Assembly (NCBI RefSeq): GCF_023897065.1
Contig: NZ_JAMHIV010000015.1
Coordinates: 124,001 to 188,000 of the forward strand
Reading direction: 5' to 3'
Origin: Crossiella sp. SN42
GTDB lineage: Bacteria > Actinomycetota > Actinomycetes > Mycobacteriales > Pseudonocardiaceae
Length of the DNA stretch: 64,000 bases
This document shows, one piece after another, positions 35,824 to 46,933 of this stretch (the stretch's first letter is position 1; the number at the start of each line of letters is the position of its first letter). The translations under genes and the position numbers were made by a program. Below the pieces are notes generated by a model. That model did not search any database and was not told the DNA's origin. It was given only the letters and a program-made list of their open reading frames with translations.

Positions 35824-35918
35824 GGAGGCGTATCCGGCCTGGTGACCGGCGCGGTCTTCAACACCGTTGAGCGGCAGCAGCTGTCGCTGGCGGGTTCGAT
35901 TCCCGTCCGCCTCCGCCA
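35824..35918 (+). tRNA. selC: tRNA-Sec (anticodon TCA)
   Basis: A 95-base tRNA with the selenocysteine hallmarks. It has an acceptor stem GGAGGCG (35824-35830) paired with CGCCTCC (35908-35914), G discriminator, encoded CCA, a long variable arm, and an anticodon loop reading CTTCAAC with TCA. The T-loop GGTTCGATTCC is normal. It lies 12 bases before selA, the arrangement expected for a dedicated sel locus. Confidence 0.93.
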
Positions 35919-35930
35919 CCGGGGGCTCCG

Positions 35931-37268
35931 ATGACCGATCCGCGCGCCGACCAGCGTGGGCTCCCGCACACCGACGCCCCACCGGCCGATCCCCGCAGGC
36001 AGATCCCCCGCACCGACGCCTTGCTGGCTGACCCGCGCCTGGCCGCGGCGGCCGCCACCCTCGGCCGCGACACGGTCAAGGCCGCCATCACCCGCTCCCA
36101 GAACCTGGCCCGCTCCGGTGAGATCGCGCCTGCCGAAGTGGCCGGGCACGCGCTGGCGGCGCTGCCCACGGGGGCCAGCAGCCTGCGCCCGGTGCTCAAC
36201 GCCACCGGTGTCCTGGTGCACACCAACCTCGGCCGCGCCCCGCTCTCCCCCGCCGCTGTGGCCGCCATCGCCGCGGCCGCCGGGCCGACCGACGTGGAGT
36301 TCGACCTGGCCACCGGCGCCCGCGCCCGCCGGGGCCGGGACGCGCTGGCCGCGCTCGCCGAGGCGGTGCCGGCGGCCGGTGGCGTGCACGTGGTCAACAA
36401 CAACGCCGCCGCCCTGCTGCTGTGCGCGCTGGCCATGGCCGCCGGGCGGGAGATCGTGATCAGCCGGGGCGAGCTGGTGGAGATCGGCGACGGCTTCCGC
36501 ATCCCGGACCTGTTGCGCAGCACCGGCGCCCGCTTGCACGAGGTCGGCACCACCAACCGCGTGCACCTGCGCGACTACGCCGAGGCGGTCGGCCAGGACA
36601 CCGGCTTCATCCTCAAGGTGCACCCGTCCAACTTCCAGGTCACCGGGTTCACCTCCACTGTGGACACTGCCGAGCTGGCCGGCCTCGGGGTACCGGTGGT
36701 GGTGGACATCGGTTCCGGTCTGCTGCACCCGCATCCGCTGCTGCCGGACGAACCGGATGCCACCACGGCGCTGCGCGCGGGCGCGACCCTGGTCACCGCG
36801 AGCGGGGACAAGTTGCTCGGCGGCCCGCAGGCCGGGCTGCTGCTCGGCGAGGCGGAGTTGGTCGAGCGGCTGCGGCGGCATCCGGCGGCCCGGGCGCTGC
36901 GGGTGGACAAGCTCACCCTGGCCGCGCTGGAGGCGACCCTGCGCGGACCGGAAACCCCGGTGGCACAGGCACTTTCCGCTGACCAGGCCGAGCTGCTGGC
37001 CCGTGCCGAGCAGCTCGCGGCCGCGCTGGCCGGATCCGGTGTGGACGCGGTGGCGGTCCGGAGCATCGCCGCGGTCGGCGGTGGTGGCGCGCCGGGGGTG
37101 CCGCTGCCGAGTGCCGCGGTCAGCTTGCCCGAGCGCTACGCCGCCGCCCTGCGCGCGCTGGCCGTGGTCGGCCGGGTGGAGCGGGGGCGCTGCCTGCTCG
37201 ACCTGCGCACTGTTGCCCCGCAACAGGACGATCAGCTGTGCGCGGCGGTGCTGGCGGTGCCGCGCTGA
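35931..37268 (+). CDS. selA: L-seryl-tRNA(Sec) selenium transferase
   Basis: PLP enzyme that turns seryl-tRNA(Sec) into selenocysteyl-tRNA(Sec) using selenophosphate. 445 aa. It shows LRPVLNATGVLVHTNLGRAPL, HVVNNNAAALLL and the PLP-lysine region TASGDKLLGGPQAGLLLG. Its stop overlaps the selB start by one base, and tRNA-Sec lies just upstream. The selenophosphate synthetase gene selD is not in the window. Confidence 0.95.
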   Translation: MTDPRADQRGLPHTDAPPADPRRQIPRTDALLADPRLAAAAATLGRDTVKAAITRSQNLARSGEIAPAEVAGHALAALPTGASSLRPVLNATGVLVHTNLGRAPLSPAAVAAIAAAAGPTDVEFDLATGARARRGRDALAALAEAVPAAGGVHVVNNNAAALLLCALAMAAGREIVISRGELVEIGDGFRIPDLLRSTGARLHEVGTTNRVHLRDYAEAVGQDTGFILKVHPSNFQVTGFTSTVDTAELAGLGVPVVVDIGSGLLHPHPLLPDEPDATTALRAGATLVTASGDKLLGGPQAGLLLGEAELVERLRRHPAARALRVDKLTLAALEATLRGPETPVAQALSADQAELLARAEQLAAALAGSGVDAVAVRSIAAVGGGGAPGVPLPSAAVSLPERYAAALRALAVVGRVERGRCLLDLRTVAPQQDDQLCAAVLAVPR

Positions 37269-38965
37269 TGCGGGTGGTGGCCACCGCCGGGCACGTCGAC
37301 CACGGCAAGTCCACCCTGGTCCGCCTGCTCACCGGGATGGAGCCGGACCGCTGGGCCGAGGAACGCCGCCGCGGCCTGACCATCGACCTCGGTTTCGCCT
37401 GGACCACGCTGTCCGGTCAGGAGATCGCCTTCGTCGATGTGCCGGGGCACCACCGGTTCGTGCCCAACATGCTCGCCGGGATCGGGCCGGTGCCCGCGGT
37501 GCTGTTCGTGGTGGCCGCGGACGAGGGCTGGAAACCCCAGTCCGCCGAACACCTGGCCGCGATCCGCGCGCTCGGCGTCCGGCACCTGCTGCTGGTCATC
37601 ACGCGCGCCGACCTCGCCGACCCGGAAACCGCGCTGCGCCAAGCGAAACAGCACTTGGGCCAGGTTCCGCACGTGGTGGTCAGCGCGACCACCGGGCAGG
37701 GACTGGACGAGCTGCGGGCCGCGATCCTCGCGCTGACCGACCGGTTGCCCGCGCCCGAGCCCGCGGCGGATGTGCGGCTGTGGCTGGATCGCTCGTTCAC
37801 CGTGGGCGGCGCGGGCACCGTGGTCACCGGGACGCTCAGCGCGGGCACCATCGCCAAGGGCGAGGAGCTCCAGCTGGCCTCCACCGGGCAACTGCTCCGG
37901 GTGCGCGGCCTGCACACCTTGGGCCGTCAGTGCGACGCCGTGCCCGCGGTGGCCCGGATCGCGGTCAACCTGCGCGGGGTCGACCGGGCCGAGCTGGTGC
38001 GCGGGGACGCGCTGCTCTCCCCCGGCCGCTGGCGCACCGCGACCGTCGTGGACGTCCTGGTTGCTGCCGAGCTGCCAACGGAACTGGTGGCGCACCTGGG
38101 ATCGGTCGCGGTGCCCGTCCGGGTCCGTCCACTGGGGACGGTCGGGGCGCGGCTGCGGCTGGCCCGGCCGCTGCCGCTGCGGATCGGGGATCGGTTGCTG
38201 CTGCGCGATCCCGGCCGGGGCGAGGTGCTGGGCGGGGCGGAGGTCGTCGATCTCGACCCGCGCCCACTGCGCCGGGGCGGCACTGCGGCCAGGGCGGTCG
38301 AGCTGACCACGAATCCGTTGACGATCCACTTGCGCACCAAGGGTTTCGCTCGGACCGACGAGCTGCGGGCCGCTGGGTTGCGTGCGCCGGAACCGGTTTT
38401 CGCGGACTGGCATGCCGATCCGGAGCACTGGGCCGCCGTGGTCCGGCGCGCGCCCGGGGAGGTCGAGTCGTGGCGGCAGGCGCACCCGCTGGAACCGGGG
38501 ATGCCCGCCGAGGCCCTGCGGCAGCGGCTGGACCTGCCCGAGGTGGCGCTGATCGGGCCGCTGGCGAACGCGGCGGGGCTGGCGGTGTCGGCAGGGCGGG
38601 TTGGCGGCGCGGTGCTGCCCGCGCGGATGGAGCAGGCGCTGGGCGCGCTCGCGGCGGAACTGGCCGGGAACCCTTTCGCCGCACCGGATTTGGCCCGGCT
38701 GGCCGAACTGGGGCTGGGTGGCAAGGAGGTGGCGGCGGCGGTGCGGGCTGGGCGGCTGCTGCGGGTCGCCGAGGGTGTGGTGCTGTTACCCGAGGCGGTG
38801 ACTCAAGCCGCGAACGTGCTGGCCAGGCTCGCTGGCCCGTTCACGGTGAGTCAGGCCCGGCAGGCACTGGGCACCAGCCGCCGGGTGGCGGTGCCGCTGC
38901 TGGAACTGCTGGACCGGCGCGGGATCACCGAACGGCTGGCGGACTCGTCCCGCCGCCTGCGCTGA
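37268..38965 (+). CDS. selB: Selenocysteine-specific elongation factor SelB
   Basis: GTPase that delivers Sec-tRNA to the ribosome at UGA codons marked by an mRNA hairpin. 565 aa. The G domain has GHVDHGKSTL, the switch-II DVPGHHRF, and ITRADL in place of the usual NKxD. Two EF-Tu-like beta-barrel domains follow, then C-terminal winged helices (about residues 350-565) that would bind the SECIS hairpin. The C-terminal part is on the short side but complete. It overlaps the convergent MauE-type gene by 41 bases. Confidence 0.95.
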   Translation: MRVVATAGHVDHGKSTLVRLLTGMEPDRWAEERRRGLTIDLGFAWTTLSGQEIAFVDVPGHHRFVPNMLAGIGPVPAVLFVVAADEGWKPQSAEHLAAIRALGVRHLLLVITRADLADPETALRQAKQHLGQVPHVVVSATTGQGLDELRAAILALTDRLPAPEPAADVRLWLDRSFTVGGAGTVVTGTLSAGTIAKGEELQLASTGQLLRVRGLHTLGRQCDAVPAVARIAVNLRGVDRAELVRGDALLSPGRWRTATVVDVLVAAELPTELVAHLGSVAVPVRVRPLGTVGARLRLARPLPLRIGDRLLLRDPGRGEVLGGAEVVDLDPRPLRRGGTAARAVELTTNPLTIHLRTKGFARTDELRAAGLRAPEPVFADWHADPEHWAAVVRRAPGEVESWRQAHPLEPGMPAEALRQRLDLPEVALIGPLANAAGLAVSAGRVGGAVLPARMEQALGALAAELAGNPFAAPDLARLAELGLGGKEVAAAVRAGRLLRVAEGVVLLPEAVTQAANVLARLAGPFTVSQARQALGTSRRVAVPLLELLDRRGITERLADSSRRLR

Positions 38966-39470
38966 ACACCGGGGCCAGCCAGGCGATCGCGGCGAGCACG
39001 AGACTTGCGGCCAGGGTGGGCAGCAGCCAACCTTCCGGCAGCGGCGGCGCAAACGTGGTCACCAGCGTTGCGGCCGCGGCGAGGACCGCGCGCGCCACCG
39101 TCGCCCAGGTGGCTGGGGAGCGGGAGTTGAAGCAGCCGCAAGGCGTGCCGGGCCTGGTGCGCACCAAGATGCCCAGGTACCCGGCGAAGGCCAGGTAGAG
39201 GGCAGTCTGTGGCAGCAGCAGAGCACGGGGCAGGGAGGGCAGCAGCACGGTGGCGGTGGTGAGGGCCGCGGCCAGAAGTTCGGTGGCAGGCGTGAGCAAG
39301 GACACGGGGCGGTGCAGGGCCGGGGGCAGCAGGCGTTGCGCACGGAGCGTGGCCAGGAAAAGTCGGCGTTCGCGCAGGTGGCCGAGTCCGGCTACCAACA
39401 GGAGCAGTGCGGCGCCGAGCGAACAGGCGTTGAGCACGGCGGAGAACACCCGATGAGGGTAGCCGGACAC
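38925..39470 (-). CDS. MauE/DoxX-family redox-associated membrane protein
   Basis: A 181-aa protein with four to five hydrophobic helices. The motif GTPCGCFNS (about residue 110), a Cys pair at a helix end, is the MauE hallmark. In methylotrophs MauE with MauD supports disulfide formation in the methylamine dehydrogenase small subunit. Here it faces away from an operon with a CxxC thioredoxin-fold protein and a Tat-exported Cys-rich protein, which fits a similar folding role. GTG start at 39470 (GTG 39449 possible). Its 3' end overlaps selB. Confidence 0.78.
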   Translation of the reverse strand: MSGYPHRVFSAVLNACSLGAALLLLVAGLGHLRERRLFLATLRAQRLLPPALHRPVSLLTPATELLAAALTTATVLLPSLPRALLLPQTALYLAFAGYLGILVRTRPGTPCGCFNSRSPATWATVARAVLAAAATLVTTFAPPLPEGWLLPTLAASLVLAAIAWLAPVFSAGGGTSPPAVR

Positions 39471-39538
39471 CCGAATGACGGCTGTTGATCGTCTCTTCGG
39501 CCGTGTTTCATGAACCAGCCCTGGCGAGAGGAAAGGTG

Positions 39539-40252
39539 ATGGCGACCCAGCAGTTGACGCTGACCGCGCCCAGCGGGCGCCGGGTGAGCGTCACGCTGCC
39601 CGCGCACACCCCGGTGTCCAGCGTGGCCGCCGGTGTCCGGTTCGCCGGTGGTGTGCACGGCACCGGCTTCCAGATCGGGTCGCGCGGCTACCACGAGTTC
39701 GCGGTCACCCAGGTCGCGCCGATGCGGCAGCGGGAGCGGTTCCTGGTGCACGGCAGGGAGGTCGTGGTCGCCGAGGCCACCGACGGGCAGTCCTCGCTGG
39801 CCACCCTGTTCGGGGTCTACCACGAGCTGATGACCGTCTACTCCGGACCCGCGCCGCACCGGGACGCGGTGTTCGCGCTGTTCAACTCGTTGCGGGTGCA
39901 GGACACCGTGGCCGGGATGGTGGTGCGGCCGCGGTCGGCGACCATGCTGGAGCTGATGAGCGAGCAGCTCGTCCTGGCCGTCCGGGACCACGGTTCGCTG
40001 TCCATTCCCGGTCCGCGCCAGGCCGCCGCGCTCACCCCGCGCTTCGCCGGGGCGCGCACCCGGCACGGCGAGGTGTGGAAAACTCCTTATCCTGGCGCGG
40101 AAGGGTCCTCGCGGGCCAGCGAGCACGCGTTTGTGCTGGGCTGCCCGGCAGGCACCGCCGAGGTGCACCTGTGCGACACCGGCGCGACCACCGAACGGCA
40201 ACGGCTGGACTGGCTGAACGAGATCAACGTGGTCTGGCACAAGGCGAACTGA
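39539..40252 (+). CDS. Unknown soluble protein, first gene of Mau-like operon
   Basis: A 237-aa protein without signal peptide or membrane segment. I do not recognise a family. Visible features are an N-terminal beta-rich part with GGVHGTGFQIGSRGYHEFAV, a helical middle, and a C-terminal part with two Cys (FVLGCPAGTAEVHLCDTG). GAAAGG-type ribosome-binding sequence precedes ATG 39539. Eight bases separate it from the thioredoxin-fold gene, so it is very likely part of that operon. It may be a cytosolic partner or chaperone of the exported protein (inference only). Confidence 0.6.
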   Translation: MATQQLTLTAPSGRRVSVTLPAHTPVSSVAAGVRFAGGVHGTGFQIGSRGYHEFAVTQVAPMRQRERFLVHGREVVVAEATDGQSSLATLFGVYHELMTVYSGPAPHRDAVFALFNSLRVQDTVAGMVVRPRSATMLELMSEQLVLAVRDHGSLSIPGPRQAAALTPRFAGARTRHGEVWKTPYPGAEGSSRASEHAFVLGCPAGTAEVHLCDTGATTERQRLDWLNEINVVWHKAN

Positions 40253-40259
40253 GACGGAT

Positions 40260-40760
40260 ATGTCACCGGAAATGGCCTTCAACATCATCACCTGGGTGGC
40301 GATCCTGGTGCTGTTCCTCGGACTCGCCGCGGTGCTGCGGGAGATCCGCCTGCTGCGCAACGAGGTCCGGCGCAGCCCGGAGGCCTTCGCGGCCGCCCCG
40401 CCGGAGCTGCTGCTCGGCGCCCGGTTCGCCGGGCGGGGGCGGCGGATCGTGCTGGCCGCCGACTCCGGCTGCCCGCTCTGCCACGCCGTGCTGGACCGGC
40501 TGCTGGCCGTGGCGCCCGGCTCGGTGCTGCTGACGCACGAGCCGGAAGCGTTGTGGGCCAAGGTGTCCGGCCAGCTGGAGGTGGTCAGCGACGCCGAGGT
40601 GTGGCGCGCGGTCTCGCACCTGTCGCCGCCGGTGCTGATGCTGGTGGACGGTGCGGGCCGGGCCGAGCGGGTGCACCTGCCGGTGCGGGTGGCCGAGGTG
40701 GACACGGTGCTGGCCGAGTGGCAGCGGATCGTGGTGCGGGGGCACGCCGATGCCGCTTGA
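40260..40760 (+). CDS. Membrane-anchored thioredoxin-fold protein, MauD-like
   Basis: A 166-aa protein with one N-terminal helix (FNIITWVAILVLFLGLAAVL) and an exported thioredoxin-like domain whose active site reads SGCPLCHAVL (CPLC). PPVLMLVDGAGRA further on matches the cis-Pro region. This layout resembles MauD. It should oxidise or isomerise disulfides of an exported client, with the MauE-type protein as electron partner. Its last 11 bases overlap the Tat-protein gene. Confidence 0.78.
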   Translation: MSPEMAFNIITWVAILVLFLGLAAVLREIRLLRNEVRRSPEAFAAAPPELLLGARFAGRGRRIVLAADSGCPLCHAVLDRLLAVAPGSVLLTHEPEALWAKVSGQLEVVSDAEVWRAVSHLSPPVLMLVDGAGRAERVHLPVRVAEVDTVLAEWQRIVVRGHADAA

Positions 40761-41310
40761 CTTCACCGACATCCCGGACACCGACCAGGTCCCCGTGGAC
40801 GCGCGGCCGACCACCGCGTTGCGCGAGCTGGACTTCACCGGCAGCCGCCGCACCCTGTTCAAGGCCCTCGCGCTGGGCGCGGTCACGGTGGGCGCGAGCG
40901 CGCTGAACCTGTTCGGCGCGCGCCCGGCCGGCGCGGAGCCCGGTCCGTACGCCCTGTCCGGCTGGGACCGCAACGACTGCAAGGACGCCTACCCCAACGG
41001 CTACGCCGAGGTGGGCGACACCACCGGCGCGTACGTCAACACCTACGCGGCCTGCCTGTCCGGCACCTGGCGCGGCTCGGTGTACTGCGAGAACGGCTGG
41101 CACAAGTACGGGACCTATGAACACGGACCGGTGCAGAGCCAGCACGTGCCGATCTCCACCTCCTGCGGCACCTCCACCACCAAGAACGCGTGGAAGTGGA
41201 CCACCCCGGACGGCAAGGTGTGGCGCTGTTCTGACGGCTACTCCACGTTCTGGGGTCCTGGCCACAGTGGACAGACGTACCTGACGATCTGCCGGGCCCC
41301 CGTGCTGTGA
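40750..41310 (+). CDS. Tat-exported six-cysteine protein, MADH light-chain-like in context
   Basis: A 186-aa protein. Residues 1-65 are a long Tat leader (SRRTLFKALALGAVTVGASAL, then ARPAGAEP). The mature part of about 120 residues has six Cys (NDCKD, AACLS, VYCEN, TSCGT, WRCSD, TICRA) and many Trp/Tyr. It looks like a compact three-disulfide domain. Long Tat leader, Cys-rich small domain, and MauE/MauD neighbours recall the methylamine dehydrogenase light chain, but that protein has twelve Cys and a heavy-chain partner, and neither is seen. Function unknown. Confidence 0.72.
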   Translation: MPLDFTDIPDTDQVPVDARPTTALRELDFTGSRRTLFKALALGAVTVGASALNLFGARPAGAEPGPYALSGWDRNDCKDAYPNGYAEVGDTTGAYVNTYAACLSGTWRGSVYCENGWHKYGTYEHGPVQSQHVPISTSCGTSTTKNAWKWTTPDGKVWRCSDGYSTFWGPGHSGQTYLTICRAPVL

Positions 41311-41447
41311 CCAGGCTGCACTGGCATCCGCTGGCCGGAGCCGCCGTGGTGCTCGCGCTCGCCGCCGCCGCGACGGGTTTGCCCGTGCCGGCCGGGTGGC
41401 TGGCGATGGGCGCGGCCTCGGGGTTCGCCACCAGCGGCTCCACCTGA
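41307..41447 (+). CDS. 46-aa membrane peptide ending SGFATSGST
   Basis: Small gene with a GTG start overlapping the preceding stop by four bases (GTGA). The product has one hydrophobic helix (about residues 9-35) and a polar tail SGFATSGST, then TGA. Codon usage matches neighbours. The next gene continues in the same frame after the TGA, so this could instead be the start of one longer protein if the TGA is decoded as selenocysteine (see findings). Simplest reading: a separate small subunit of the operon. Confidence 0.6.
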   Translation: MTRLHWHPLAGAAVVLALAAAATGLPVPAGWLAMGAASGFATSGST

Positions 41448-41465
41448 AGCCGGAACTCGGCCCTG

Positions 41466-42047
41466 GTGCTGAGCTCGCCGGTCTGGCGAGGCACTCCGGC
41501 GGTGGCCTTCTGCCTGGGACTGCTGGGCGGCGGCCTGGTCACCGCGACCGTACTGGTGGTCCTCGGCTCGCTGCTGCGCGCCCCGCTGCCCGCGCCGGTG
41601 CCCTGGCTGCTGGTCGGGCTGATGCTCATCGTGGTGCTGGGCAAGGAGATCGGCTGGCTGCGGATCCGGCTGCCGGAGAACCGGCGGCTGGTGCCGGAGA
41701 CGGTGTTCCGGCTGGGGCGGCACGCCGGGCCGTTCCAGTTCGGGCTGGAGATGGGCACCGGGGCGCGCACCTACCTGCCCAGCGGGCTGCCGTACGTGGC
41801 CGCGGTCGCGGTGCTGTTCCTGGCCTCCGTCCCGGCCGCGCTGTGCGCCGGGCTGGGTTTTGGCCTGGGGCGGGCGCTGATGACCACGGCGAACCTGCGC
41901 TTCGGCGAGAGCGGGGCGTGGGACGCGGCGTGGACCCGCCACCGCCGCGTCCTCGCCCTGTTGGTGGGGCTCGCGTTCCTGTTGGCGCTGCTGGTGTTGC
42001 TGCTCAGTGATCCGACAGTCCGTATGCCCGGTGCACGGTCTGGCTGA
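41466..42047 (+). CDS. Polytopic membrane protein, last gene of Mau-like operon
   Basis: A 193-aa protein with about five hydrophobic segments. A central loop reads LPENRRLVPETVFRLGRHAGP, followed by FQFGLEMGTGARTYLPSGLPY and later FGLGRALMTTANL. I do not recognise a named family; the general look is of CcdA/LysE-type transporters. GTG 41466 has only a weak GGAA upstream, and the frame continues upstream to a TGA at 41445 in line with the preceding small gene. It overlaps the convergent subtilase gene by 44 bases. Confidence 0.65.
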   Translation: MLSSPVWRGTPAVAFCLGLLGGGLVTATVLVVLGSLLRAPLPAPVPWLLVGLMLIVVLGKEIGWLRIRLPENRRLVPETVFRLGRHAGPFQFGLEMGTGARTYLPSGLPYVAAVAVLFLASVPAALCAGLGFGLGRALMTTANLRFGESGAWDAAWTRHRRVLALLVGLAFLLALLVLLLSDPTVRMPGARSG

Positions 42048-45000
42048 CCGAGTTGCCGTCGGCGTCGGCCGCGGTGAGCCGGAGCGCGGCGAAACCGTTG
42101 CCGCGCGGGTGGTTCAGCAGCGTGTAGCCGTTGGCGCCGAAGCGCAGCACCGGGCTGCGGGTCCAGCTCTGGCCCTCGTCGTAGGAGACCTCGGCGGTCA
42201 GCGCGGTGATCGGGGCGGTGGGTGCGCCCGGCTGGTGGTGCGCGGATAGGTTCAGCAGGTAGGGCGCTCCGGCGCGGGCGCGGTTGTGCTCGTCGACCTG
42301 GCCGGTGGCGCGGATGGCCAGCACCGGCAACGGTTTCCCGTCGCCCGCGTCGCGGAAGGTCCAGCTGACCTCGGCGCGGCTGCCCAGGTCGGACCAGGGC
42401 ACAGCGCGGGTGGCGCTGGCGTGCACGGTGTAGCGACCGCCGGTGGTCGGCACGGTGAACACGCCGGAGCCTGGGGTGTCGGCCGCGCCGATTTGCTGGC
42501 CGTCGCGGGAGAGCGTGGTGCGGCCGGTCATGCCGACCGGCGGTGGCTCGGTGACCAGCGCGGGATCGTTGCCGGACAACAGCGGCACGCCGAACTGGAG
42601 GGTCTCGCCGGTGCGGTGCGCGCCCCAGCCGCGTTCCGGGTCGCCGAAGGCCGGGCCGAGCGGGGCGCGGTTCCAGGCGGTGGCGGACCGGCCGGGGCGC
42701 AGGGTGCGCACGGACCAGTGCAGTTCGGCGTCGGACTCATCCGGCGGGCGGAGCACCAGGAGCTGCTGCCAGGTGACGTCGGGGTGCGCGGTGAAGTACT
42801 CCACCCGCTGGGCGGGCAGGGCGAGCGGGTAGGAGATCAGCATGCCGTTGGTGGTGCCGGGCACCGGCAGCCGGGCGTAGTCGGCGCGCAGGCCGGTGGC
42901 CGGGTGACCCTGGTCGTGGTAGCGACTGTCCACTGTGGCCAGTTCGTGGTCCCGGACGCGGCGGTCCAGGGTGGCCGGGATGCGGCCGCGTTCCAGGAAG
43001 GCCAGGTGGTAGAGGTAGGGGACCGGGCCGGTGGCCGGGTGCGCCGGGCCGAGGGTGGCGCGCTGGAAGTAGGCGTAGGTGTGGTCGGTGACCTGGCCGG
43101 GGGTGGCGACGGCGAAGAGCTGCTGACCGAGGCCGGAGGTCCAGGACAGGGTGGAGGTGCGCACGCCGGACTTCTCGCCGGAGACCAGGCCGAACTCGCC
43201 GTACTGGTGCCGCGCGCCGGGCCGGTCCACGGTGGCGCGGACCGGTTTCGCGGTGGTCGCGTCCAGGGTCAGCTCGGTGTCGCGGGTCAGGCTGAGTCCG
43301 GTGCGGGACAACAGGGTCACCACGGTGGACTGCTCGGCCAGGTCGAGGGCGTTGATGTCGTAGCGGCCCTTGGGCAGCCGGAGGACCGCGGTGCCGGCGG
43401 CGTTGAAGCGGGGTCCGGTGGCCGCGCCGGTGCTGGTGTCCACGGCCTGGGCGAGGGCGGCGCTGAACTTGCCGCCACGGCTGCGGATCTTCAAGGTCAG
43501 CTGGTAGCTCTCCGGCTCCAGGACCGCGCCGAGGGCGGTGCGCACGGAGATACCTGGCGCGGTGGCGGTGAGCCGGATGCCCTGCGGCCCGGCCGTTCCG
43601 GTGGAACGGGCGGTGACCGCGACCTCGGCACTGCCCCCGGCGGGCACGGTGACCTGGTTGGCGGACAAGGCAAAGGCCGGGTTCTGGTCCAGGGCCAGGT
43701 TCAGCGTGACCGGGGCCGGTCCGTCGTTGTGGTAGCGGACGGTCTTGGTGGCGGACTGCCGGTAGGGTAAGAACCCGAAGCTGACACTGCCGCTGTCGCG
43801 CACGGACTGGCTGATCGCGCGGGCCACGTCCACCCGCCCCGCGCCCTGGTCGAAGACGCCGGCGGTCGGGGTGGCCGAGCTCATCAGCTGCGGCTTGAGC
43901 CGATCTACTGTCCACTGTGGATTCTGTTGCAGCAGCAGGGCGGCCGCGCCGGTGACGTGCGGGGCGGCCATCGAGGTGCCGCTGGCCCTGCTGTGCCGCT
44001 GGTCCACCGGGTCGGCGTCGCCGGTGGGGGTGCCGGGCACGCGGGCGGAGACGATGCCGCTGCCGGGCGCGGCGAGGTCGGGTTTGACCGCGTGGTCACC
44101 CAGGCGCGGGCCGTGGCTGGTGAACGGGCTGGGCGTGTCCTCGGCGGTGACGCTGCCGACGGCGAGTGCGGCGTCGGCCGAGGCGGGTGCGGTGACCCCG
44201 GCCAGCGGGTCCGGCGGGTCGATGCTGCGGTCGTTGCCCGCGGAGACCACGAACAGCGTGCCGTGCTTGGCGCTCAACGTGTTCAGCGCGGTGGACACCG
44301 GGTCGGCGCCGTCGGTGGTGTCGCCGCCGAGGCTGAGGTTGACCACCTTGGCGCGCGGCGCGATCCACTCCAGCCCGGCGATGACCATCGAGTCCGGGCA
44401 GCCGAAGGCCACGCACACCTTGCCGCTGACCAGCTTCACATCCGGGGCGACCCCGCGGTACTCGCGGCCGGCCGAGGCGATGATGCCGGCCACGTGCGTG
44501 CCGTGCCCGAGGTCGTCGCCGCCCTGCGGCAGGGTGCCGGTGAAGTCCTGCTGGACCAGCAGTTTCCCGGCCAGGTCGGGGTGGCCGCCGTCGATGCCGG
44601 AGTCCAGCACGCCGACGGTGACCCCGCTGCCGGTGAGCCCGCTCTGCCAGGCGGCGGCCGTGCCGATCTGCGGCACGCTGGTGGCCAGGGTGGGTTGGGC
44701 GGTCCCGTCCAGCCACACCTTGCCGAGTCCGGCCGGGCGGGTGCGCACCCAGTCCCAGAACTCGGCGCCCTTGGCGCGCACGGCCGCGCCGTTGATCGCG
44801 GGCAGCGCGCGGACCGTGCGGCCGCCGACCACCCCGGCGGCGCGGGCGCCGGTGTAGGTCAGGATGACCGGGGTGTCCCCGGCGGGCTGCCGGGCCAGGG
44901 TGGTGACGTCGAACAGGCGCGGGTCCAGGCGGCCCTCGGCCAGCAGCGGCACCGCGTCCGCGGGCACCACCCGGTGGTGGACGCCGTCCTTGCCGGTGGT

Positions 45001-45264
45001 GGTCTCGCGCAGGAAGCCGAGTTTCTCCCGGCCGGGCGCGGGTTCCACCAGCAGGGTGACCGTGCGGTCGGGGGCGGTGGCCAGGCGCACCCGGTCGCCG
45101 GTGACCAGGGTCACGGTCCGATTGTCCTTTGTGGCAGCCGGAATGGCCGGGGCAGGGTTGGCCGCGGCCGGTTCTCCTACCGGCAGCAGGGCGGCTACCA
45201 GGACCAGCGCAGCCATTCGGACGAAGTGGACACCACCTGATTGGCGGTCGGCATTCCGGGACAC
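42004..45264 (-). CDS. Secreted S8-family (subtilisin-like) serine protease
   Basis: A large subtilase of about 1,086 aa. After a signal peptide (MAALVLVAALLPVGEPAAA) and a propeptide of about 180 residues come the catalytic Asp (VLDSGIDGGHPDL), His (GHGTHVAG) and Ser (GTSMAAPHV), intact at about residues 221, 254 and 431. The long C-terminal part contains beta-sandwich domains of unknown role. It is exported and should degrade extracellular protein. Start uncertain: GTG 45264 is used; ATG 45216 would give a shorter leader. No clear ribosome-binding site precedes either. Confidence 0.9.
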   Translation of the reverse strand: MSRNADRQSGGVHFVRMAALVLVAALLPVGEPAAANPAPAIPAATKDNRTVTLVTGDRVRLATAPDRTVTLLVEPAPGREKLGFLRETTTGKDGVHHRVVPADAVPLLAEGRLDPRLFDVTTLARQPAGDTPVILTYTGARAAGVVGGRTVRALPAINGAAVRAKGAEFWDWVRTRPAGLGKVWLDGTAQPTLATSVPQIGTAAAWQSGLTGSGVTVGVLDSGIDGGHPDLAGKLLVQQDFTGTLPQGGDDLGHGTHVAGIIASAGREYRGVAPDVKLVSGKVCVAFGCPDSMVIAGLEWIAPRAKVVNLSLGGDTTDGADPVSTALNTLSAKHGTLFVVSAGNDRSIDPPDPLAGVTAPASADAALAVGSVTAEDTPSPFTSHGPRLGDHAVKPDLAAPGSGIVSARVPGTPTGDADPVDQRHSRASGTSMAAPHVTGAAALLLQQNPQWTVDRLKPQLMSSATPTAGVFDQGAGRVDVARAISQSVRDSGSVSFGFLPYRQSATKTVRYHNDGPAPVTLNLALDQNPAFALSANQVTVPAGGSAEVAVTARSTGTAGPQGIRLTATAPGISVRTALGAVLEPESYQLTLKIRSRGGKFSAALAQAVDTSTGAATGPRFNAAGTAVLRLPKGRYDINALDLAEQSTVVTLLSRTGLSLTRDTELTLDATTAKPVRATVDRPGARHQYGEFGLVSGEKSGVRTSTLSWTSGLGQQLFAVATPGQVTDHTYAYFQRATLGPAHPATGPVPYLYHLAFLERGRIPATLDRRVRDHELATVDSRYHDQGHPATGLRADYARLPVPGTTNGMLISYPLALPAQRVEYFTAHPDVTWQQLLVLRPPDESDAELHWSVRTLRPGRSATAWNRAPLGPAFGDPERGWGAHRTGETLQFGVPLLSGNDPALVTEPPPVGMTGRTTLSRDGQQIGAADTPGSGVFTVPTTGGRYTVHASATRAVPWSDLGSRAEVSWTFRDAGDGKPLPVLAIRATGQVDEHNRARAGAPYLLNLSAHHQPGAPTAPITALTAEVSYDEGQSWTRSPVLRFGANGYTLLNHPRGNGFAALRLTAADADGNSVSQTVHRAYGLSDH

Positions 45265-45337
45265 CGCCGGAGTATCACCGGGTTGGCGCAATGGGTGTAG
45301 CCGCCAGGCAGGTGACGGCCTCACCCGGTTGGCGGGT

Positions 45338-46933
45338 TCAGCCCAGATCGCGCCGCCGCAGCCCGAGCACACCGGTTCCGGCCAGCGCCAACGTCACCGC
45401 GGTCAGCGCCAGCAGCGGCAGTGTGGTGAACTCGCCGCCGGAAAGCACCTTGGGTATGTGGTGGAACGGCACGATCTGGTTGGCCAGCCAGTAGTCCACG
45501 CCGAGCACCGGGCCGAGCTGTTCGCCGAGCAGGTTGCACAGCAGCCACACCGACCAGGAGATCGCCGCGGCGGCCCTGGGCAGGAACCCGAAGGCGAGCA
45601 CCGCGACCGCGCCGATCGTCCAGGCCGCCGGGACCTGCACCAGCGCGCCCAGCAGCACCCGGCCGAGCTGAGTCGAGTCCGAAGTGGACAGTGCGTGCAC
45701 GGCGCCCGCGGCCAGGCCGCCCGCGCCCAGCATCACTGCGGTGCCCAGCAGCGCGAAGGCGAGGTGGCTGAGCGCCCAGCGGGTCCGGCCGACGGTGGTG
45801 GACAGGGTCAGCTCGGCCCGGCCGTCGGCCTCCTCGGCGCGCAGGCGCAGTGCCACCAGCATCGGGTACAGCGCGGCCACGCCGCCGAGGCTGAGCAGGA
45901 CCAGCCACAGGTAGGTGTCGGCGATCCCGGCCTCCGGACTGGCGGCGTACCGGCGGAAGAACTCCTGGATGGCCGGGCCGCCGCGACCGGCGATCTCCGG
46001 CATGCCCGTGGCCACCGTCGCGGTGGCCGCCCCGGCGACCGCGAACCCGGCGGTCCAGCCGAGCAGCTGCCCACGGTGCAGCCGCCAGGCCAGGCCGAAG
46101 GCCGACCGCAGCCGCATGGCGGTCGCGGGTCCGGGCCGGGTGGGCAGCACGCCGGCGCCGTGGTCGCGGCGCGCCACCAGCAGGACGGCCAGCGCGGTCA
46201 GCGACACCGTGGCCAGCAACGGAAGCAGCAGCACCGCCCAGCGCGGGTCGCCGGTGGGTTCGAGCAAGTGACTCCAGCCGGTGGGGCTGAGCCAGCGCAG
46301 CCAGAGCAGGCCGCTGCCGTCGGCCAGGAAGCGCAGCAGGTAGGCCAGGCCGAAGCCGGTGGCGGCCAGCGCGGTGGCGGTGCGGGCGCGCGGGGTCAGC
46401 TGCGCGGTGACCGCGGCCAGCGCGCCGAACACCAGGCCGGGCGCGGCCACCGCGAGCCCGAGGGCGAGCGCGTTGACGGCGGGGAATCCCATGGCGGGCA
46501 AGCCGATCGCGACCAGCGTGCCGGCGCCGAGGGCGGCGATCCAGGTGAGCAGCAGGGCGGCGGCGAGCCCGGCGTGGCGGCCGATCGCGCCCGCGCCCAG
46601 CAGTTCGGCGCGGCCGGACTCCTCCTCGGCGCGGGTGTGCCGCACGGTGATCAGCACGGCCATCAGCGAGACCAGCGCGTAGGCGATGTCGCCGATCTTC
46701 CAGGCGGTCAGCGCGGGCAGCCCGGCGCCGTGCACCTGGCCGGTGAAGGCGCTCAGCGCGGTGTTGCCGGTGACCTCGGCCAGGAACGCCTGCCGCAGCT
46801 CGGCGGTGGGGAACAGGCGCGCGTACTGGGCGGCGGTGCCCAGCACCAGCAGCGTGACCAGGCCGACCCAGGCGGGCAGCAGCAGCCGGTCGCGGCGCAG
46901 GAACAGGCGGAACAGCAACCCGGCGCCGGTCAT
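45338..46933 (-). CDS. ABC-2-type exporter permease
   Basis: A 531-aa integral membrane protein with about twelve helices in two similar halves. Each half has an EE...GRAELL/T loop ([19 protein letters not shown] and [19 protein letters not shown]), typical of actinomycete drug or polyketide exporters. It pairs with the ATP-binding protein next to it, whose stop overlaps its start by four bases (ATGA). Substrate unknown; antibiotic or lipid export is plausible. Confidence 0.88.

Follow-up and report, generated by a model that had tools for sequence, protein, structure and literature searches.

In methylotrophs, the proteins MauD, MauE and MauF act in maturation; MauF is, to our knowledge, little studied. 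A redox residue at the start of a helix is what is expected of a DsbD-like redox site. The present analysis concerns a Mau-type gene set of the actinomycete Crossiella sp. SN42 (host genome of 9.7 Mb), read in a window of contig NZ_JAMHIV010000015.1 (the window is the whole 64-kb stretch of DNA that was analysed, and all positions are window coordinates). An earlier note on this DNA had described a MauE protein with the motif GTPCGCF, divergent from the genes for a soluble protein (here B), an anchored protein with a CPLC motif (C), a protein with six cysteines (Cys) and a twin-arginine translocation (Tat) leader (D), a 46-amino-acid membrane peptide and a polytopic membrane protein. The calls of MauE, B, C and D stand. 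The peptide and the polytopic protein are not two genes: judged from the sequence, they almost certainly form a single gene read through a UGA as selenocysteine (Sec, U in motifs), and the product is a MauF homologue. Owing to this identity and to the evidence for a recoded UGA with its selenocysteine insertion sequence (SECIS), the locus is interpreted as a Mau-type set, i.e. MauE, a MauD-like protein and a predicted selenocysteine MauF, around a six-Cys Tat-leader protein. The actual novelty is the selenocysteine, which had not been noticed in the earlier note.

The in-frame UGA of the MauF gene

The open reading frame (ORF) of 193 amino acids (41466-42047) is in frame with that of 46 amino acids (41307-41447) and starts 18 nt past its TGA. 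An in-frame TGA was found at the equivalent place in 35/35 loci read (four of them repeats). The frames join across this TGA in 31/31 distinct homologous coding sequences, and the separate membrane peptide is therefore not retained. The flanking residues are conserved as SGS[TSV]-U-S[RKN]NSA in the 24 sequences aligned through the site, and read GFATSGST-U-SRNSA in Crossiella sp. SN42. The excess identity at synonymous sites was +0.343 in codons 1-15 past the TGA vs +0.107 elsewhere (31 coding sequences), and the strongest constraint was met in a 14-codon window that begins at the TGA and includes a CGA arginine in 25/31. AlphaFold2 modelled the read-through chain with a pLDDT of 90.2 and a pTM of 0.88, a confidence that is no proof of a single chain. 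In this model residue 47, the predicted selenocysteine, follows a break and marks the beginning of a helix.

Downstream of the UGA, the hairpin CUCGCC-GGUCU-GGCGAG satisfies a published rule for bacterial SECIS elements (bSECIS): a loop of 3-9 nt with a G in the first two positions, 16-37 nt past the UGA, on a stem of 4-16 bp with an energy of -7.5 or lower (PMC13188914). Its loop is GGUCU and its spacing 32 nt. A first candidate, a hairpin 12-29 nt past the UGA, was dropped, as this second one fits the rule. The 6-bp stem is intact in 29/29 distinct sequences; its energy is -7.5 kcal/mol or lower in 28 and -6.7 in the remaining one. Over the 21 distinct rows of the hairpin alignment 126/126 cells are paired, with one two-sided change (U-A to G-C in Phytoactinopolyspora, L044). 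The published rule was passed by 31/31 TGA genes of the close family and 10/11 of the distant relatives, vs 1498/6016 and 579/2804 control codons of the same genes, respectively. With a stricter rule, devised post hoc once the hairpin had been seen, 31/31 close and 10/11 distant TGA genes passed vs 273/6016 and 92/2804 control codons. Among 30 loci fetched later, many from genomes already used, 24/26 TGA genes also passed the stricter rule. One of four Cys homologues passed by either version.

Searching further actinobacterial groups with a profile of the close family yielded relatives whose site reads WSP-U-G or WSP-C-G, a motif found in most of the distant relatives inspected. With a broader profile, 75 matches (matches, not genes) were obtained in 70/396 genomes of an actinobacterial sample. 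Among the 65 that span the site, a hand count gave a single internal TGA in 56, TAA or TAG in none and no stop in nine, which points to a widespread selenoprotein family. In the 30 fetched loci the codon is TGA in 26 and TGC in four (L104, L106, L109, L125); Paracoccus denitrificans MauF also has a cysteine at this position. The selenocysteine tRNA (tRNA-Sec) was searched in 59 genomes and found, at a limit of 56 bits chosen post hoc, in 46/51 genomes of the TGA type vs 1/8 stop-free ones (p 1.7e-5); where the codon itself was seen, it was present in 26/26 TGA and 0/4 TGC genomes. Its presence within the order is uninformative as a test, 224/298 genomes being above the cut-off. In one assembly, a MauF relative appears to be split over two contig ends (L088 8529-9000 and L089 1-440), and the second half of MauF is matched over 40 residues at two places of Nonomuraea gerenzanensis (L103, NZ_LT559118.1), unannotated in the record.

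Several observations weigh against a recoded UGA. TGA is the usual stop here, at 117/123 ends of B, C, D and the MauF gene, so that finding it throughout the close family is by itself weak evidence. Covariation of the hairpin is thin, its one two-sided change being equalled in 19/500 shuffles, and the published rule lets through about a quarter of the control windows. At the Rfam cut-off of 47 bits, tRNA-Sec is found in 47/51 vs 4/8 genomes (p 0.008). A clear tRNA-Sec is missing from five TGA-type genomes and present in one that is stop-free; the Cys codon was checked in four of the eight stop-free genomes. All these p-values are overstated, since the species are not independent. The usual stop would agree with a pair of genes under coupled translation, namely a small membrane peptide ending at the TGA and a membrane protein starting at GTG 41466, as would the retention of a GTG seven codons past the TGA in 29/31 sequences. 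This start is however absent from the other two, the residues between TGA and GTG are conserved, and 0/31 sequences have a Shine-Dalgarno-like 4-mer ahead of their first possible start past the TGA, vs 6/8 hand-picked B starts used as control. Together with the cysteine of the relatives at the TGA, the continuity of MauF itself through WSPCG, the SECIS-like hairpin and the sel genes, this leaves two separate genes scarcely credible.

The fused protein is a MauF homologue by profile comparison. With close and distant families combined, hhalign against MauF gave 99.5% (E 3.9e-22), and with the distant family alone 99.3%; the close family matched the distant one at 98.7%, and the controls (MauE, NapH and reversed MauF) remained at 0.1-0.3%. 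P. denitrificans MauF (L102, annotated) reads GLLSTWSPCGYSS, and the cysteine of its WSPCG motif aligns with the UGA. This motif is absent from the close family, which has SGS[TSV]-U-S instead. The comparison with Mau proteins drawn in the earlier note was therefore correct and extends further, MauF joining MauE and the MauD-like protein. No Pfam or NCBIfam model scored above cut-off for MauF or the relatives scanned; in one distant relative DsbD_2 (8.4e-5) and DsbD_TM (2.6e-4) gave weak scores, both below cut-off. Points against these assignments are that the close family by itself reaches just 76.1% against MauF (E 2.3e-5), that neither the distant MauF-like protein of L081 nor P. denitrificans MauF has a DsbD match, and that Foldseek with the model of the MauF chain found no PDB match at E<=0.001.

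The operon and its selenocysteine genes

The genes for tRNA-Sec, SelA and SelB, which the earlier note did not mention, stand directly upstream of the operon (35824-38965), and the 3' ends of selB and mauE overlap by 41 bp (Table 1).

Table 1. Features of the Crossiella sp. SN42 locus in window coordinates
Feature	Position	Strand	Basis
tRNA-Sec (anticodon tca)	35824..35918	+	ARAGORN; Rfam model, 78.1 bits at same position
selA	35931..37268	+	TIGR00474, 424 bits (cut-off 267.9)
selB (start uncertain)	37238..38965	+	TIGR00475, 291 bits (cut-off 242.25)
mauE, motif GTPCGCF, divergent from the B-C-D-MauF genes	38925..39470	-	PF07291, 72.7 bits, E 4.6e-20 (cut-off 27)
Gene B, soluble protein, 237 amino acids	39539..40252	+	Conserved in operon; by eye, no signal peptide
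Gene C, MauD-like; thioredoxin-like protein with N-terminal anchor and CPLC motif	40260..40760	+	hhalign; 27/27 loci
Gene D, Tat-leader protein, six Cys, 186 amino acids, likely folding client	40750..41310	+	Homologue alignment
Selenocysteine MauF homologue (predicted), 246 amino acids, Sec at residue 47	41307..42047	+	In-frame TGA, MauF homology, AlphaFold2
UGA read as selenocysteine (predicted)	41445..41447	+	Conserved TGA; Cys/Sec relatives
bSECIS-like hairpin CUCGCC-GGUCU-GGCGAG, loop 32 nt after UGA	41474..41490	+	Stem conservation, rule test

B, C, D and the MauF gene were all found by tblastn in 27/27 loci of the genome contigs, which represent 26 genomes (one locus is a second copy), and the gene set is for this reason more than a chance assembly. 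The count has weak points: in L044, C has an E of 0.003 and the opposite strand holds the best B match, and in L034, D stands 3.3 kb from the other genes. In L044 the ORF just upstream of C falls in the same cluster as B. MauE-like ORFs were detected at E<=1e-3 in 17 of the 27 loci, more weakly in four, and were not found in six (tblastn). D of Crossiella sp. SN42 shares 86% identity with its counterpart in Crossiella sp. S99.2. The conserved gene set fits a dedicated export-and-folding unit and is compatible with the dedicated export-and-disulfide machine of the earlier note, the homologues of D mostly keeping such neighbours (MauD-like C in 27/27 loci, MauE in 17/27). Gene C matched P. denitrificans MauD at 79.6% (hhalign, E 1.5e-5), with no NCBIfam or Pfam match. 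Gene B has no Pfam, NCBIfam or PDB match, and its identification as MauJ was rejected (hhalign 0.2%).

Elsewhere in the Crossiella sp. SN42 genome, the genes for B, C, D and MauF occur again as a diverged copy (L050). Its MauF gene (L050 9957-10922) is likewise TGA-bearing, and the SelD gene adjoins this copy in convergent orientation. The same genome contains six more MauE-like matches, on contigs C38, C29, C31 (two), C14 and C8, one of which scored 102.7 bits. A subtilase gene (PF00082) at 42004-45372 on the minus strand is convergent to the operon, and a homologue of it, so assigned by clustering, was found close to the operon in 19/28 loci. Family 15 of the neighbour clustering occurs near the operon in L036, L038, L040 and L044, the L036 member being sigma-factor-like by eye.

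A SelB-like best match was obtained in 26/26 related genomes, 17 of them above the cut-off, and tRNA-Sec stands within the locus (about 20 kb or less) in 12/27 loci. Formate dehydrogenase FdhA with an internal TGA was found in 15/26 genomes; 11/26 had none among the matches listed. Linkage of tRNA-Sec to the operon was observed in 11/11 genomes with no TGA-containing FdhA among the matches listed vs 1/15 with it, an Actinoplanes (L036), at p 1.6e-6 with kinship ignored. A point against this pattern is that the absence of a TGA-containing FdhA rests on scores among the matches listed. No TGA-containing FdhA was seen in the genome of Crossiella sp. SN42 either, other selenoproteins not having been searched for. 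The operon may explain why some actinomycetes that lack a selenocysteine formate dehydrogenase retain the selenocysteine genes.

Gene D and the proposed maturation route

Over 25 aligned homologues of D, the twin arginines R33/R34 and the cysteines C77, C102, C113 and C160 are invariant, C139 and C181 are conserved in at least 90%, the tryptophans W117, W148 and W150 are invariant, and the residue two positions before C160 is W, Y or F. D has no Pfam or NCBIfam family above cut-off and no PDB sequence match. Its fold model (pLDDT 49.9) is too poor, and the PDB structures matched by this model are meaningless.

Near distant MauF relatives, nine loci hold Cys-rich proteins that contain 18-24 Cys and mostly start with a Tat-like leader (L074, L076, L077, L079, L080, L082, L085, L086, L087), and MauE- and MauD-like genes, recognized by eye, stand beside MauF in several distant loci, at least L075, L077, L085 and L087. 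The Cys-rich domain belongs to no known family; the L087 protein carries six LGFP repeats and the L080 protein has no Pfam match. CPPG and GWWK stretches gave these proteins a resemblance to MauA by eye, with no Pfam match above cut-off, no PDB profile match and no hhalign match to MauA (0.5%), and this identity is not claimed. L088 holds an intermediate, a D with 15 Cys. By eye, D, this intermediate and the Cys-rich proteins look like variations of one theme; the comparison of D with the Cys-rich family was not significant. Between MauF and the Cys-rich protein of two loci (L087 2364-2837, L085 9079-9561) lies a protein of about 160 amino acids with a GWEG-like start, one of which was scanned and had no Pfam or NCBIfam family.

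Taken as a whole, the evidence makes it highly probable in our judgement that the operon serves to produce and mature a single small secreted protein by means of a selenocysteine MauF. The sequence itself shows an open read-through frame, the hairpin, the sel genes, homology to MauF and MauE, and a conserved operon; the incorporation of selenium, the route and direction taken by the electrons, the status of D as client and what B does are inferred as follows. D would be exported by the Tat pathway, carrying presumed disulfides. MauF would be made with selenocysteine, the UGA being recoded under guidance of the hairpin and the neighbouring sel genes supplying the machinery. MauE and the DsbD/CcdA-like MauF, both membrane proteins, would use the CxC motif of the former and the selenol of the latter to carry reducing equivalents through the membrane. 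The MauD-like protein with the CPLC motif would receive them and, on the outer side of the cell, rearrange or reset the disulfides of D. A cytosolic action of B on the precursor of D is possible. An advantage of selenium in aerobes may be its speed or its resistance to over-oxidation. Two points count against this scheme: the direction given to the electrons is guesswork and could be the reverse, and L078, a Cys-form relative, shows no mau-like neighbours.

Other functions were weighed for the same genes. The selenoprotein could be real and have a job other than folding D, moving a metal, sulfur or selenium compound or feeding electrons to another enzyme, with D as a redox carrier or an enzyme that uses it; such a role would agree with the lack of a solved fold matching the MauF chain, whose top non-significant Foldseek ranks are mostly transporters (E 0.41 and worse), and with a D devoid of family or PDB match. 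It is nevertheless unlikely, as a Tat-exported Cys protein accompanied by MauF, MauE and MauD is the arrangement of the mau cluster, in which these three act in maturation, and in several distant clusters MauF and genes that look MauE- and MauD-like by eye stand beside Tat proteins far richer in Cys. Very unlikely, too, is a divergent light chain of methylamine dehydrogenase (MADH) with a tryptophan-derived quinone. The earlier note had raised this identity, and D shares with it the neighbours of mauA, a Tat leader and the invariant tryptophans, while the CPPG and GWWK stretches of the distant clusters look MauA-like by eye. D however has six Cys and not twelve, a variable W, Y or F before C160, and no match to the light-chain family (PF02975), to PDB profiles or to MauA (hhalign 0.4%; 0.5% for the Cys-rich proteins). 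Moreover, PF02975 was above cut-off in 0/396 genomes, MauG (PF03150) has no match in this genome, and the heavy chain (PF06433) has none either, a weak result as its control was also silent. The light-chain and Trp-Trp cofactor idea is thus unsupported.

Significance and comparison with known systems

No account of MauE, MauF or methylamine with selenocysteine or a selenoprotein was found in the literature, judged by titles and abstracts. For the members scanned, the family is in neither NCBIfam nor Pfam, and it is not in the available part of a 2026 review table of 119 selenoprotein families (PMC13188914). Standard-code translation splits the predicted selenocysteine MauF genes in two. A 2016 survey described selenocysteine users without known selenoproteins, ascribed chiefly to the incompleteness of genomes, and classed Amycolatopsis vancoresmycina DSM 44592 among organisms with an orphan SelD (PMC5029168); in A. 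vancoresmycina NRRL B-24208 (L028) the operon is present, together with SelB and a UGA-containing FdhA. It is conceivable, though a tentative proposal, that a set of actinomycetes in which no Sec-FdhA was found keeps the whole selenocysteine machinery for one selenium MauF that matures one secreted Cys protein, possibly to a new protein-derived cofactor, TGA/TGC relatives recurring across the phylum. If true, this would be, as far as we know, the first case of selenocysteine in such protein maturation outside the cytoplasm. MauF would gain a likely redox residue, and the client and chemistry of Mau-type maturation become testable in culturable soil bacteria.

Among described proteins, MauF of P. 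denitrificans (NC_008688.1) is the nearest: homology extends over about 170-190 columns with the same position of the redox site (WSPCG), and its cluster has the same partners, MauE, MauD and a Tat-leader Cys protein. The Crossiella homologue differs by a predicted selenocysteine in place of cysteine and, with its close family, by SGST-U-S in place of WSPCG; the MADH heavy chain, amicyanin, MauG and MauJ were not seen beside the operon. For the maturation pair, MauE is a clear member of PF07291 and C is MauD-like, although C reaches no curated MauD model. DsbD/CcdA proteins (PF13386, PF02683) resemble the MauF chain as multi-helix membrane proteins, in the weak scores of one distant relative and in the redox residue at a helix start of the model, and differ in that these scores are below the curated cut-offs, a single redox residue is conserved and Foldseek gave no match at the threshold used. 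TsoB, a rhodanese/DsbD fusion (NF045694), is likewise a DsbD-like selenoprotein, to which the family member L043 is matched at E 0.09; this match scores 10.8 vs a cut-off of 805 bits, and the MauF family is distinguished from TsoB by the lack of the rhodanese part and by another Sec motif.

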